Of a stretch of 42,802 bases of DNA, positions 15,963 through 38,798 are shown piece after piece. Under the pieces are notes generated by a model, which worked only from the letters and a program-made list of their open reading frames with translations, made no database searches and was not told the DNA's origin. Numbering within the stretch: position 1 is the first letter of the stretch; every line of letters begins with the position of its first letter. Source of the DNA: a virus; IMG/VR virus record IMGVR_UViG_3300025435_000004, positions 1 through 42,802 of that record; one strand, written 5' to 3'. Made by a program: the position numbers and the translations under genes.

Positions 15963-16307
15963 GTGGCTAATCCAGGCAGATATAACATCAATGTTATCAA
16001 GGGCACAACTTTTAATTTAACAACTGTATGGAAGATCAATGCCATCCCAGTTATTATGACAGGCTATTCTGCTGACCTACAAGTTCGTGACGTATCAAAT
16101 AATCTTATTACTGAAATGTCTACAGCCAACGGCAAAGCAACCATCACTGGTTCTGCTGGCAAAGTTTCATGCGACCTTACAGCAGCGCAGACTAATGCGC
16201 TTACCGCTGGAACTTACAACTATGCTCTTAACGTTACCGATGCTGGCGGCACAGTCACACAGCTTCTTAATGGAACATTCCTTGTTGCTGCATCGGTGGT
16301 GCAGTAA
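15963..16307 (+). CDS. Beta-sandwich tail/fibre-associated protein
   Basis: A 114-aa protein starting at GTG 15963 behind TTAGGAGC. The predicted pattern is all beta: [27 protein letters not shown], then a final strand pair with LLNGTFLVA. It resembles small immunoglobulin-like or BppU N-terminus-like proteins frequently placed beside tail-fibre genes in phages, where they anchor fibres. It overlaps the collagen-like fibre gene by one base (TAATG), supporting a partnership. The role is inferred. Confidence 0.6.
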
Positions 16308-19120
16308 TGGCGGTTAATCAAGACAGTATCTCAACGGTTGAAGTTCAAGTAACTACTAACGTATTTGACGTAGTTTCAAATGAATATCGTGTTATTGAAT
16401 TAGGTCCTATCGGACCACAAGGCCCTATTGGCTATCAAGGTTTTGCAGGTGTTACAGGCGCAACAGGTGCGCAAGGTTCTACAGGAGTGACGGGAGCACA
16501 AGGTGCGGCAGGTAATACTGGTAATACTGGTTCTGTCGGTTCCACTGGTGCCACTGGCCCTACTGGCTCTACAGGCATTACAGGACCAACGGGTAGTCAA
16601 GGAAATACTGGTAACACAGGATCAGTTGGAGCAACAGGCGCGGCAGGATCTACGGGCGGCACGGGAGCTACTGGCTCTCAAGGGAATACTGGAACAACGG
16701 GACCAACAGGTTCTGTAGGTTCAACAGGTTCAACTGGCGCAACAGGTGCGCAAGGCAACACTGGTAGCACGGGTGTTACAGGCCCTACAGGGCCTACAGG
16801 AGCCACTGGCAGCACAGGTCCTACAGGTTCTACAGGCTTTACTGGTTCAACAGGTGCTACGGGCTTTACAGGCTCTACAGGACCTACTGGTCCTACGGGT
16901 GCTCAGGGCAATACGGGCAACACAGGAAACACTGGCAACACGGGTAATACTGGTAACACAGGTAACACTGGTCCATCCGTAACAGGATCTACTGGTCCGA
17001 CTGGTGCTACTGGTGCCACTGGTGCAGGCGGTACGCTAGGCCATTACGGTAACTTTTACGATACTACCACTCAGACCAATGCAGGCGCTACTAGCGCCAA
17101 CCTTATTACTATTAACACCGATTCTGGCTCAAGTGGCGTAAGCATCGTCTCATCTAGCCAAATTACTTTTGCCTATGCTGGTACTTACTCAGTAAACCTT
17201 TTGGGTCAATTCATCACCACTGGTGGTGGAAGCAATTACCAAGTAAACGTTTGGTATGCTCTTAATGGAACTGCTGTGACTCAATCAACCGCAGTCTTTA
17301 CAACCTCTGGCGTTAACAACCAAGTCCTTGCAAACATTGAAGACTTAGTAACAGTTAATGCTGGTGACTACATCCAGTTCTACTGGTCATCACAAAACAC
17401 CTATATGGAATTACTAGCAGTTGCTGCTGGTTCATCTCCGACTCGTCCTGCATCTCCAAGCGTGAATCTTCACGTTGAACAAATTATGTACACTATACTT
17501 GGACCGACGGGAGCAACGGGTGCCACAGGATCTACGGGAACGAATGGCTCAACTGGATCAACAGGGCCAACAGGAAGTACTGGCAGCAATGGCGCGACTG
17601 GAGCGACGGGGGCTACTGGATCAAGCGGGTCTAACGGTGCTACGGGAGCAACGGGAGCTACAGGCTCAGCAGGTGCGGTAGGAACAACAGGTCCAACAGG
17701 CCCAACAGGATCAACTGGTGTTGCAGGTAATACTGGTAACACAGGAAATACTGGCTCTGCAGGCGCACAAGGAAATACGGGAAATACTGGTAATACAGGA
17801 AGTTCTGGCGCTCAGGGTAATACAGGTAATACTGGTCCTACTGGTAGCAATGGAACAAATGGTTCTACAGGTGCCACAGGTCCAACAGGTGTAGTAACGG
17901 CAACTGCCCCAGTTACTTATAACTCAGGCACACAAACTGTTGCACTCAATGTTGGCACAGGACTTACTACTTCAGCAAGTAACCTGATTGTAGATACAAC
18001 CGTTGTGCCTGAATTGGCTACAACGAATACCTTTACAGCAGGTAACACAATAGCCCCTACCGCTACTGGAGTAGTGCCATTAACTGCAACTACGCCAAAT
18101 GGCTCTAATGCAAATATTGCTTCCTTTACGCAAGCAGGAACTTCTTACGCATTAACTGTTGACCAGTTTGGTATTTTAAAAACTGCTTTTGGAATTTACG
18201 GCGGAACTACTGTTAATTATGGTGCAAGAAATAATTTTGGTCCAAACGGTTCAGCAAATATAATTATTGCTAACAGAGCAGCCTCTGCCCAAAGCGGAGA
18301 TATGCTTCAAAACCAAAACGGTTCTGGTACACTTATTTCAGGATTTAACGCAGCGGGTCAATTATTTGCTGGTAACACAACAGCAGTAGTTGGTTCTATT
18401 ACAACTGCTATTTCATCCGCTGCTTATACCTCTGCCACAGTTGCCGTCTTTACCTATGGCGGAACATCGTTAATTCAAGTCGGGCAAAGAGTAACTATCG
18501 CTGGTGTTACTGGCGGTACTTACAATGGTACTTGGATAGTGACTGCCGCAACATCTACCACCTTTACCGTAGTAGGTTCAGGATTTACCAACGTTGCTGG
18601 TACTGGCGGAACAATTCAAATCTCAGCAGTTGTTTCTGTCGTTGCCCCAACTGCCGCTATTACCCCAATAGTAGTTCAAGGTAATGCTTCCCAAACTGCC
18701 AACCTTACTGAATGGCAAAACTCAAGCGGTGCGGTATTGGCAAAGATTGACTCAGCAGGTAACTTGACTGCTGCAAGTTATAACGGTCCAGTTCTTTATA
18801 CAATTAACAACCAAACTGGTACTACCTTTACTCCAGCACTAGCCGATGACTATTCAATAGTTACCCTTAACAACGCATCTACTATTTCAGTAACTATTCC
18901 GACTAACGCTTCCGTTGCCTACCCAGTAGGTAGTCAATTAAACTTTGTTTGGATTACTGGAGCTGGACAGCCAACTATTACTGCTGTTACCCCTGGTACA
19001 ACTACAATTATTTCAACTGGCGCAACGTCAACTGCACCTAAACTTAGGGCAAAAAACTCTGCTGCAACAGCAATTAAAATTGCTACGGACACGTGGTTGG
19101 TAACGGGCGATATAGCATAG
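16307..19120 (+). CDS. Collagen-like tail fibre with jelly-roll domain
   Basis: A 937-aa fibre. After a 32-residue anchor come Gly-X-Thr collagen repeats (residues 33-240), then a C1q/TNF-like beta domain (about 243-395), then a second Gly-X-Thr block (399-528), then a beta-rich C-terminal part. Nearly every triplet ends in Thr, as in the O-glycosylated BclA-type bacterial collagens. Residues about 700-775 hold a YNGTW module also present in the 25260-27548 product. The last hundred residues match the end of the 22231-23142 product (PKLRA, then GDIA). It probably trimerises as a receptor-binding fibre. Two glycosyltransferases in the genome could modify its threonines, which is inference. Confidence 0.85.
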
Positions 19121-19123
19121 TTT

Positions 19124-19133
19124 GTGCTATAAT
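19124..19133 (+). promoter_or_regulatory. Extended -10 promoter TGTGCTATAAT, leaderless-type
   Basis: TG-C-TATAAT (TG at 19125-19126, TATAAT at 19128-19133) is a perfect extended -10 box just after the fibre stop codon. The expected start of transcription, about 7 bases downstream, coincides with GTG 19140, which has no ribosome-binding site. This would give a leaderless mRNA, a common type in actinobacteria. No -35 box is visible, and extended -10 promoters do not need one. Confidence 0.65.
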
Positions 19134-37679: not shown

Positions 37680-37816
37680 CGATACAGCTCAATTCCTATA
37701 ACCCACTTAAACAAATACAGACCTAACTCCCATTTGTACCCTATTGGATACTCCCAGTTGGTCAAATAAATACCCAATTCGTATGAGTTGCTGTTAGTTC
37801 CAAAGCGTATTTTCAT
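37676..37816 (-). CDS. Tiny aromatic-rich protein (46 aa)
   Basis: A 46-aa protein rich in Tyr, Trp, Leu and Ile (NSYELGIYLTNWEYPIGYKW). It starts on a TAATG overlap with the gene upstream and ends on an ATGA overlap with the gene downstream, which makes translation very likely despite its length. The end, LGLYLFKWVIGIEL, is hydrophobic and may insert in or lie on the membrane. Confidence 0.6.
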   Translation of the reverse strand: MKIRFGTNSNSYELGIYLTNWEYPIGYKWELGLYLFKWVIGIELYR

Positions 37817-37956
37817 TAGTAACCGCCTAGACATTCCTTTGAGTGCGTGTGTCGTGAGTAGAGCATTTGATACTCGCTCTTGCTGGGCGCGAATAACTCA
37901 GCGCCACATGCTCCACATGCTCCAAACCATTCTCCACCAAAAAAATCAAATTTCAT
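37816..37956 (-). CDS. Tiny zinc-finger protein (46 aa)
   Basis: A 46-aa protein. WFGACGACGAELF gives CxxC, followed by SRHTHSKECLGG with two His and a Cys, a plausible zinc-binding set. Similar very short proteins occur throughout actinophages. It overlaps the glycosyltransferase gene by 4 bases and the next gene by one. The function is unknown. Confidence 0.65.
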   Translation of the reverse strand: MKFDFFGGEWFGACGACGAELFAPSKSEYQMLYSRHTHSKECLGGY

Positions 37957-38798
37957 TTAAGTGTTCCCATCCAGTGCTTGATAGCTTCTAAGTTTTCATG
38001 CAGCGTTAGATAGCCATAGATCTTGCGGTTATCTAAGTACTGCAATATATCATTCTTGCGCCAGTTACGGCTAACTCTTACATACTCATAGTCCTGCGTA
38101 CCATCAAAGTAGTTGGTAAAAGGCAGGGCTTTGGGGTGAATAAGGTAGGTACAGTGGACCAAATCGATAGGGAATATGCCCCGTATTATCCCATTGAGTA
38201 GGGAAAAGTACTCATCTGAGTCACGATAATACCCCGTCTCTGTAACTGGGTGGTGATAATTGCTGTAGGCAACATGATTTTCTTCGCCTTCTGCTGCTGC
38301 GTAGCGCAGTAGTGGGGCGATAACAGGGCGTGAAGCAGATACAAGGGTGCGTAGAGTCTCTGGCAGTAGAAAGTTATCTACATCTGCCACAAAGTAGTGA
38401 TAACCCAACTCCTTAGCCTTCTCTATGCCATCTTGGCGTAGTGCGCCTAATACATCAAAGCGCATAGCGTTCCACTCATGTACACCAAAGTTCTGTACTG
38501 GCTCTGGCACGTCACTATCGTCTAGTTCTATGTCTAGCCAGTCATATTTCCATGGCTCGCCATTGATTGTATTTTCTTGCTCTTCATGGAACAGTTCGTT
38601 TTGAGCATAGACCCACTGTTGCAGGATCGTGGCTGTCTTATCGTTGTTGTTGTTGGTGCGGATATAGATATGCACCTTGTTGCGTGGATAGTCCAGCTTA
38701 TCTAAGTTCTGTTTTAGCCAGTAAGGCAGGATCTTTTCTTTATCTTTTGCCAGCACGTGAAATAGCACGTCTGGCAGTTCGTTATCTTCTAGTACCAA
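37953..38798 (-). CDS. Procollagen-galactosyltransferase-like glycosyltransferase
   Basis: A 281-aa enzyme starting at TTG 38798 behind ATAGGAGACATAA. The order of motifs recalls the first glycosyltransferase domain of eukaryotic COLGALT/GT25-like enzymes: HVLAKDKEKILPYWL (14-28), LDYPRNKVHIYIRTNNNNDK (35-54), YHYFVADVDNFLLPETL (133-149, DxD-type 139-141), RPVIAPLL, then RGIFPIDLVHCTYLI (206-220) and KIYGYLTL (259-266). Those enzymes add galactose to hydroxylysine of collagen. Here the natural partner would be the Gly-X-Thr fibre at 16307-19120, with Thr as acceptor, which is inference. Other acceptors such as host glycans are possible. Confidence 0.72.
   Translation of the reverse strand: MVLEDNELPDVLFHVLAKDKEKILPYWLKQNLDKLDYPRNKVHIYIRTNNNNDKTATILQQWVYAQNELFHEEQENTINGEPWKYDWLDIELDDSDVPEPVQNFGVHEWNAMRFDVLGALRQDGIEKAKELGYHYFVADVDNFLLPETLRTLVSASRPVIAPLLRYAAAEGEENHVAYSNYHHPVTETGYYRDSDEYFSLLNGIIRGIFPIDLVHCTYLIHPKALPFTNYFDGTQDYEYVRVSRNWRKNDILQYLDNRKIYGYLTLHENLEAIKHWMGTLK

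Follow-up and report, generated by a model that had tools for sequence, protein, structure and literature searches.

A collagen-like phage fibre and two putative glycosyltransferases that may modify its Gly-X-Thr repeats

The DNA analysed here, called the window throughout, is a phage record from IMG/VR (IMGVR_UViG_3300025435_000004; 42,802 bp). Its opening bases are repeated at its end, and the genome is therefore probably complete. It carries a gene for a collagen-like fibre and two genes for predicted glycosyltransferases. One lies directly after the fibre gene and encodes a GT-A domain with tetratricopeptide repeat (TPR)-like helices (the GT-A+TPR enzyme); the other lies elsewhere and encodes a homologue of GalT-N, the N-terminal domain of COLGALT1 (the GalT-N enzyme). 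The features are:

16307-19120, plus strand: collagen-like fibre gene, 937 residues, Gly-X-Thr repeats without Lys (Pfam Collagen 1.7e-47; PHROG tail fibre matches to 2e-68)
16403-16978, plus strand: first Gly-X-Y tract, residues 33-224, 64 triplets
17501-17896, plus strand: second Gly-X-Y tract, residues 399-530, 44 triplets
19122-20204 (alternative start 19140), plus strand: putative GT-A+TPR glycosyltransferase, proposed initiating enzyme, directly after the fibre (PHROG, model)
37953-38798, minus strand: GalT-N-type glycosyltransferase, 281 residues, homologue of the COLGALT1 N-terminal domain (phmmer, predicted fold)
38376-38384, minus strand: DxD codons D139-V140-D141, aligned with COLGALT1 D166-A-D168 (phmmer alignment)

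The fibre is dominated by its repeats. The initial annotation had given a 937-residue protein with Gly-X-Thr blocks at residues 33-240 and 399-528; the length and the repeats hold, and the blocks are redrawn as 33-224, a short run of eight triplets at 227-250, and 399-530. The longest run has 64 triplets, whereas 1000 shuffled versions of the protein never exceeded 9. Across tracts of at least six triplets, Thr occupies 81 of the 116 Y positions, Pro is found at X positions only (19), and Lys is absent from all 116 triplets, the protein's five Lys all lying outside the tracts. The tracts of ten further collagen-like open reading frames (ORFs), from eight relatives, contain 0 or 1 Lys. This composition makes the fibre a BclA-like, Thr-rich collagen, as had been annotated. 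The BclA C-terminal domain was not found in it, and Collagen is its sole Pfam match at E-values up to 1. Its Gly-X-Y tracts, its place in the tail region and its PHROG tail families are those expected of phage collagen-like tail fibres, and it is presumably trimeric. By eye, its C-terminal part (18800-19120) resembles that of the tail gene at 22231-23142, both ending in GDIA, possibly as a shared tip domain.

The GT-A+TPR gene begins at 19122, following the fibre stop at 19120, and so bears out the second glycosyltransferase that had been annotated directly after the fibre. Its product (360 or 354 residues from starts 19122 or 19140) has a GT-A domain followed by paired TPR-like helices. Pfam gave GT2 and TPR matches below threshold only, and PHROGs assigned phrog_13126 ('beta-1,4-glycosyltransferase', 7e-79). 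The predicted model (predicted local distance difference test score, pLDDT, 90.2) best matches SunS and ThuS among PDB entries (Z 19.9-21.8, 13-16% identity), with root-mean-square deviations of 4.0-8.7 Å that indicate two domains differently set or poorly fitting; single-domain enzymes such as WrtF follow (Z 18). SgtA of Clostridioides difficile is described as a 358-residue protein with a glycosyltransferase domain followed by TPR, encoded immediately upstream of bclA3, that adds beta-O-linked N-acetylglucosamine to Thr in the BclA3 collagen repeats (PMC7157674). By analogy, the GT-A+TPR enzyme is a likelier initiating enzyme than the GalT-N protein.

The GalT-N gene starts with TTG at 38798, with AGGAG six bases upstream, and the plus strand across 37953-38798 is full of stops. 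Its coordinates and all motifs quoted in the initial annotation stand; its strand is corrected to minus. Relatives match the protein over nearly its full length at 9 of 11 loci in a first scan and at 74 of 79 in a second, the other five being incomplete. Searched against PDB with phmmer, it matches COLGALT1 (E 5.8e-22 over residues 7-266), LH3 (3.7e-5) and mimivirus R699 (0.012). An AlphaFold model built on a 27-row alignment (pLDDT 94.3) superposes on COLGALT1 residues 48-319 with Z 30.3 (251 residues aligned, 2.2 Å, 25% identity), followed by the LH3 accessory domain (Z 26), Mnn9 (21.5) and R699 (21.3), the rest of the 50 entries listed reaching at most 16.5. This ranking places the predicted fold in the GalT-N/accessory-domain lineage, together with collagen-modifying enzymes and apart from unrelated glycosyltransferases. 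The aligned parts are the N-terminal domain of COLGALT1, the accessory domain of LH3 and the second domain of R699, not the catalytic GT25 domain, and Pfam found no GT25 match (PF01755) in the 281 residues. Of the COLGALT/GT25-like identity first assigned, the kinship to COLGALT is thus retained and GT25 is replaced by the N-terminal domain. Pfam Glyco_tranf_2_4 (PF13704) falls below its cut-off of 27.5 bits for both the GalT-N protein (21.0) and the GT-A+TPR protein (22.4). PHROGs held no significant family for the GalT-N protein.

D139 and D141 are invariant in all 27 alignment rows, phage and bacterial, as are the RTNNN.D motif and the H-C of the VHCTY motif. A mutagenesis study describes the aligned COLGALT1 motif, D166-A-D168, as essential, the double mutant being inactive (PMC3244457). 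From these conserved residues, the phage enzyme is predicted to be active.

The association between the two enzymes is carried by other viruses. A profile of bacterial members was compared with viruses, giving the best 80 of 110 relatives; 22 in contigs of the window's family were set aside and 58 examined. At 47 of these 58 loci, the GalT-N gene is preceded on its own strand by a GT-A+TPR homologue whose end is at most 100 bp away; at four more the homologue is adjacent and convergent, so that the two enzymes are neighbours in 51. The remainder comprise one weak match further off, two loci that begin at the gene and four with none. The homologues score between 4e-15 (cut-off pieces) and 7e-115 with a hidden Markov model (HMM). 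Collagen-like ORFs lie within the fetched flank (up to 10 kb) at 17 of the 58 loci, and the four checked are all Pfam Collagen. Fourteen of the 58 are on contigs longer than 40 kb, and these were searched end to end: collagen exceeds the Pfam cut-off in 13, and in the fourteenth the GalT-N gene is 2.7 kb from the contig end. Among 24 control contigs of at least 30 kb, taken from the 80 listed for an arbitrary 14-base pattern, none passed the cut-off and two had weak sub-threshold matches. The difference is pronounced (13/14 versus 0/24, Fisher p 3e-9), and two properties of the samples weaken it: the 13 collagen-bearing records include near-copies (for example G498/G499 and G501/G502), and the control contigs are smaller (31-97 kb versus 44-294 kb) and unmatched for host and habitat.

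Among cultured phages, no GalT-N homologue was found at E 1e-3. Raising the limit to 10 gave 32 phage records; among the 20 matches listed, all overlap tape-measure or tail genes and look like noise. DSL-LC01, a freshwater actinophage in culture, carries a GT-A+TPR gene 3 kb from its two collagen genes. In its region 8535-15077 (L448), the collagen genes are followed in a row by a hypothetical gene, a tryptophan halogenase and the GT-A+TPR homologue, with a WhiB gene next. A variable 5-kb island with two collagen-like genes, possibly tied to host recognition, is described for cultured freshwater actinophages (PMC10202952).

Bacterial relatives tell a similar story. A scan of one genome per species yielded 39 GalT-N loci. 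At 18 of them, a GT-A+TPR-like domain precedes GalT-N within a single polypeptide (HMM E 4e-9 to 2e-17), and four further loci have a separate GT-A+TPR-like gene within 1.3 kb. A collagen-like ORF occurs in the fetched flank (up to 6 kb) at 20 of the 39 loci; of these ORFs, 18 were checked, and each proved to be Pfam Collagen. About 2.8 collagen-flanked loci are expected by chance, with a maximum of 12 in a million draws, an expectation that counts each HMM match as a separate gene, which overstates gene number, and that uses match counts standing as 'at least' values in four genomes. The 20 loci include six from Mesorhizobium and three from Paenibacillus and are not 20 independent cases. Thr per triplet is about 0.9 or more in 14 of the 20 collagen ORFs and 0.5-0.8 in the other six; Lys numbers 0 or 1 in their tracts, except in L219 (8 in 53 triplets) and L215 (3 in 21).

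Counting collagen anywhere in the genome adds little. It is present in 38 of the 39 bacteria with the enzyme. In the family of one of them, a Paenibacillus (G034), collagen matches occur in 179 of 197 genomes (over the cut-off in 169); six carry the enzyme, all of them with collagen and three already among the 39 loci. Genome-level co-occurrence was set aside as weak evidence, since 179 of the 197 genomes have collagen anyway. Among 250 genomes of the same class, the enzyme scores high in G034 only, with three weak partial matches.

Several bacterial proteins show further arrangements. A Mesorhizobium protein of 934 residues (L238) joins GT-A+TPR-like, GalT-N and GT25 domains in one chain; its residues 404-890 align with COLGALT1 24-502, that is with both COLGALT1 domains (E 1.3e-40), and its plasmid homologues are annotated as GT25. 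At four Mesorhizobium loci (L230, L226, L235, L239), the collagen-like proteins near the fused enzyme start with a DUF4347 domain, followed by Gly-X-Thr tracts. Within 4 kb of a free-standing GalT-N enzyme, Paenibacillus daejeonensis encodes a collagen protein that also carries a BclA C-terminal domain (L247:374-2455), and one bacterial fusion (L214:4408-7431) has GT2, GalT-N and then a methyltransferase domain in place of GT25.

We built a tree of 60 GalT-N sequences, its root serving for drawing only. The window's family forms one clade (100/98) with the viral sequence L392 as sister (99/97), and their union with a large-phage clade is moderately supported (93/98). A further three viral sequences (L386, L390, L408) fall weakly among free-standing bacterial forms (91/65 and 80/63). 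Human COLGALT1 is on a very long branch, and its place is therefore not claimed.

Within the window's own phage family, relatives were drawn with the GalT-N enzyme as bait (79 loci) and, independently, with the major head protein (best 80 of 593) and the terminase (best 80 of 278). In the enzyme-baited set, collagen exceeds the cut-off in 8 of the 18 records searched. Of the remainder, four (G002, G010, G011, G012) stop short of the fibre locus or at it, and six are pieces of 13-15 kb. Among the 18 longer records of the head and terminase set, collagen is found in 14 and the GalT-N enzyme in six; collagen is absent from four of the six enzyme-bearing records (G310, G318, G321, G323) versus none of the 12 enzyme-free ones, the fibre locus being missing or cut off in all four. 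Relatives with the enzyme and no collagen would have spoken against the annotated link, and all eight such records stop before or inside the fibre locus, aside from the six short pieces. When the fibre locus is included in the record, collagen is present in 11 of 11 with the enzyme (the window, G001, G003-G009, G319, G320) and in all 12 without it. The GalT-N gene is consequently optional cargo, not required in this family.

The GT-A+TPR gene, by comparison, tracks the fibre. It is present in 21 of the 23 records with a collagen ORF, the window included, and the remaining two (G006, G315) end in the fibre; no collagen-free record among the 31 of the family carries it. In 17 of these 21, no more than 20 bp separate the end of the fibre gene from its start, and in G309, G316, G317 and G319 it lies 1.3-2.5 kb downstream. 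In G004 and G312 (L116-L118, L353-L355) there are two pairs of fibre and GT-A+TPR genes per record; the paired enzymes differ in G004 (89% and 62% identity to that of the window) and score alike in G312, and duplication, mixed assembly or end overlap is possible.

We judge it fairly probable, on the strength of homology and gene neighbourhoods, that the collagen-like tail fibre is O-glycosylated on its Gly-X-Thr repeats by the phage's own two-enzyme set. The repeats have no Lys and are rich in Thr at Y, which excludes hydroxylysine galactosylation of them and makes Thr O-glycosylation the likely chemistry. The GT-A+TPR enzyme (19122-20204) would most likely put the first sugar on fibre Thr, like SgtA on BclA3, and the GalT-N enzyme (37953-38798) would most likely extend that sugar or modify further sites. 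Gene neighbourhoods elsewhere, in viruses and bacteria alike, suggest joint action of the two on collagens of this type; in some bacteria a single polypeptide would perform both steps, at times with GT25 as a third domain. We infer that both enzymes are active and act in this order, and likewise the identity of acceptor and sugars and an effect on the virion; fibre sugars might serve stiffness or stability, protease resistance, or receptor binding or masking. The link between enzyme and fibre drawn in the initial annotation is thus backed from outside the window, by fusion, adjacency and collagen neighbours.

A number of observations weigh against this proposal. In the window, the GalT-N gene is about 18 kb from the fibre, in a different and oppositely directed module. 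Collagen is universal in the window's family, present with or without the enzyme, and the co-occurrence check across related phages, once run, therefore cannot decide and is uninformative on the enzyme-fibre link; four relatives (G312, G315, G316, G317) lack the GalT-N gene although they carry the fibre and, on both sides, the genes that flank its slot. No collagen ORF lies in the fetched flank at 41 of the 58 loci of other viruses, many of these flanks being short. In large phages, the enzyme-collagen distance is 7.7-14.3 kb, and 12-49% of random places are equally near; nearness therefore adds little there. Of the 39 bacterial loci, 19 are without collagen and 17 without an evident partner enzyme in the flank. 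The fused bacterial domain is mostly 20-27% identical to the phage GT-A+TPR enzyme, a likeness that may be of a broad superfamily only. Finally, the human domain homologous to the phage GalT-N enzyme is described as dormant (PMC13382579).

This last point leads to an unlikely alternative, in which only the GT-A+TPR enzyme glycosylates the fibre and the GalT-N protein would serve as a partner or adaptor without catalysis of its own. The same 2026 review treats COLGALT1 GalT-N as a dimerisation scaffold and GalT-C (GT25) as the active domain, with the LH3 accessory domain likewise inactive (PMC13382579); it places the GalT-N motif at 461-463, which is in the C-terminal domain by the numbering of the mutagenesis paper (PMC13382579 versus PMC3244457). 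Of the four slot-spanning relatives with a fibre and no GalT-N gene, the GT-A+TPR gene is seen in three, the fourth record stopping within the fibre, and DSL-LC01 likewise combines collagen with a GT-A+TPR gene, with no GalT-N match among phage records at E 1e-3. An adaptor sits poorly, however, with the invariant DxD, RTNNN.D and H-C positions of the phage and bacterial proteins, with the DxD requirement reported for COLGALT1 (PMC3244457), and with the bacterial loci where GalT-N occurs without an evident partner.

Slightly less likely still is that the GalT-N enzyme has nothing to do with the fibre and modifies a host surface glycan, such as teichoic acid or a polysaccharide, against superinfection or otherwise remodels the host. 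The gene does sit with WhiB- and transglycosylase-like genes in a minus-strand module, the teichoic-acid enzymes TarP and TarS share the general fold (Z about 16), and glycosyltransferases of freshwater actinophages have been proposed, among other roles, to prevent superinfection by altering how the cell wall is glycosylated (PMC10202952); the bacterial loci without flanking collagen also fit. Yet the sequence has no membrane anchor or secretion signal apparent by eye, and this reading leaves unexplained the pairing or fusion with the GT-A+TPR enzyme and the collagen neighbourhoods.

Two further readings are highly improbable: a collagen hydroxylysine galactosyltransferase in the animal sense, which homology to COLGALT1 by sequence and fold would favour and which is opposed by the Lys-poor repeats of the fibre and its relatives (literal galactosylation of the fibre repeats being ruled out), the missing GT25 domain and the lack of a lysyl hydroxylase family among the 20 window proteins scanned against Pfam, which are part of the window's genes; and an enzyme that glycosylates modified bases of phage DNA, whose protection is another role proposed for phage glycosyltransferases (PMC10202952), opposed by the enzyme's relatives being bacterial proteins, half of them beside collagen genes, and by the absence of any recognised base-hypermodification family among the scanned proteins, a subset of the window's ORFs, a DUF1599 'nucleotide modification associated' match at 34680-35033 aside.

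The genes around the fibre and the GalT-N slot are:

15963-16307, plus strand: 114-residue gene directly upstream of the fibre, kept alongside it in relatives (phrog_1084 6e-21; synteny)
37186-37506, minus strand: small conserved gene (106 residues), other flank of the GalT-N slot in most relatives (synteny)
38789-39220, minus strand: transglycosylase-like gene overlapping the GalT-N gene start, one flank of the optional slot (phrog_12661 1.7e-29; synteny)
39130-39543, minus strand: WhiB-like regulator (Pfam Whib 2e-15)

The slot between the 106-residue and transglycosylase-like genes (37506-38789) is variable across relatives and in G312 holds a 91-residue WhiB-like ORF, by eye. The host is probably an actinobacterium, judging by the WhiB-like gene and by a terminase that shares about 45% identity with Streptomyces phage terminases. 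No near-identical phage DNA was found for window bases 1-25000. A DUF6065 protein (24505-25206; Pfam 1.7e-9) lies in the tail region, and among 12 relatives compared only G003 has a homologue (45% identity). A proteasome-family match (PF00227, 4.8e-6) at 33954-34523 has homologues in 4 of the 12, and 39625-40182 is a separate methyltransferase gene.

Phages with collagen-like fibres, Thr glycosylation of the SgtA type and the proposal that phage virions are glycosylated are already known; the phage GalT-N enzyme and its combination with an SgtA-like enzyme are, to our knowledge, new. Among the titles and abstracts listed in searches of open-licence literature, outside which most subscription journals and bioRxiv preprints fall, none deals with a phage COLGALT-like enzyme or its SgtA-like pairing. 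At the level of genes, the system is a candidate for phage collagen fibres coated with sugar, and it links two poorly understood phage glycosyltransferases to a single likely substrate. It also brings to light prokaryotic relatives of COLGALT beside Thr-rich collagens with few or no Lys, the Mesorhizobium protein that aligns with both COLGALT1 domains among them. With small single-domain homologues at hand, the role of the human COLGALT1 N-terminal domain, called dormant while its DxD is reported as essential, becomes testable. We offer, tentatively and with considerable doubt, a wider history: GalT-N may have arisen long ago, in prokaryotes and viruses, as an active enzyme that acts on Thr-rich collagens; bacteria would have fused GT-A+TPR, GalT-N and GT25, phages would have kept the first two as a gene pair, and animals would have inherited GalT-N and GT25 as COLGALT, with GalT-N activity lost or changed. 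If true, the phage protein would be a living single-domain version of the silent half of human COLGALT.

Compared with known systems, the phage pair resembles SgtA and BclA3 of C. difficile in its GT-A and TPR architecture, its length (about 358 residues) and its gene beside a Thr-rich collagen gene, a likeness drawn from architecture and gene position; the collagen is a phage fibre and not a spore surface protein, the enzyme gene comes after and not before it, and a GalT-N enzyme is added (PMC7157674). COLGALT1 (GLT25D1) shares an N-terminal GT-A domain over nearly the whole phage protein, with the DxD aligned to D166xD168, whereas the phage enzyme has no GT25 domain, its fibre repeats have no Lys acceptors, and its setting is a virus of bacteria. 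The accessory domain of LH3 (PLOD3) and mimivirus R699 belong to the same GT-A lineage (Z 26 and 21), but their aligned parts are accessory and not catalytic, and those enzymes act on hydroxylysine or galactosylhydroxylysine; mimivirus R699 and L230 are described as a viral precedent for collagen modification. The Mesorhizobium 934-residue protein shares GT-A+TPR-like and GalT-N domains and has homologues beside DUF4347-collagen genes; it is a fused, three-domain protein, whereas the phage has two separate genes and no GT25. SunS and ThuS, the best structural matches of the GT-A+TPR enzyme, carry out S-glycosylation of a bacteriocin peptide, and SunS is, by its name, derived from the SPbeta prophage. 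Mycobacteriophage virions, likened here by description, likewise involve phage-encoded glycosyltransferases proposed to modify a virion protein, in that case the capsid and not a collagen fibre (PMC11256854).

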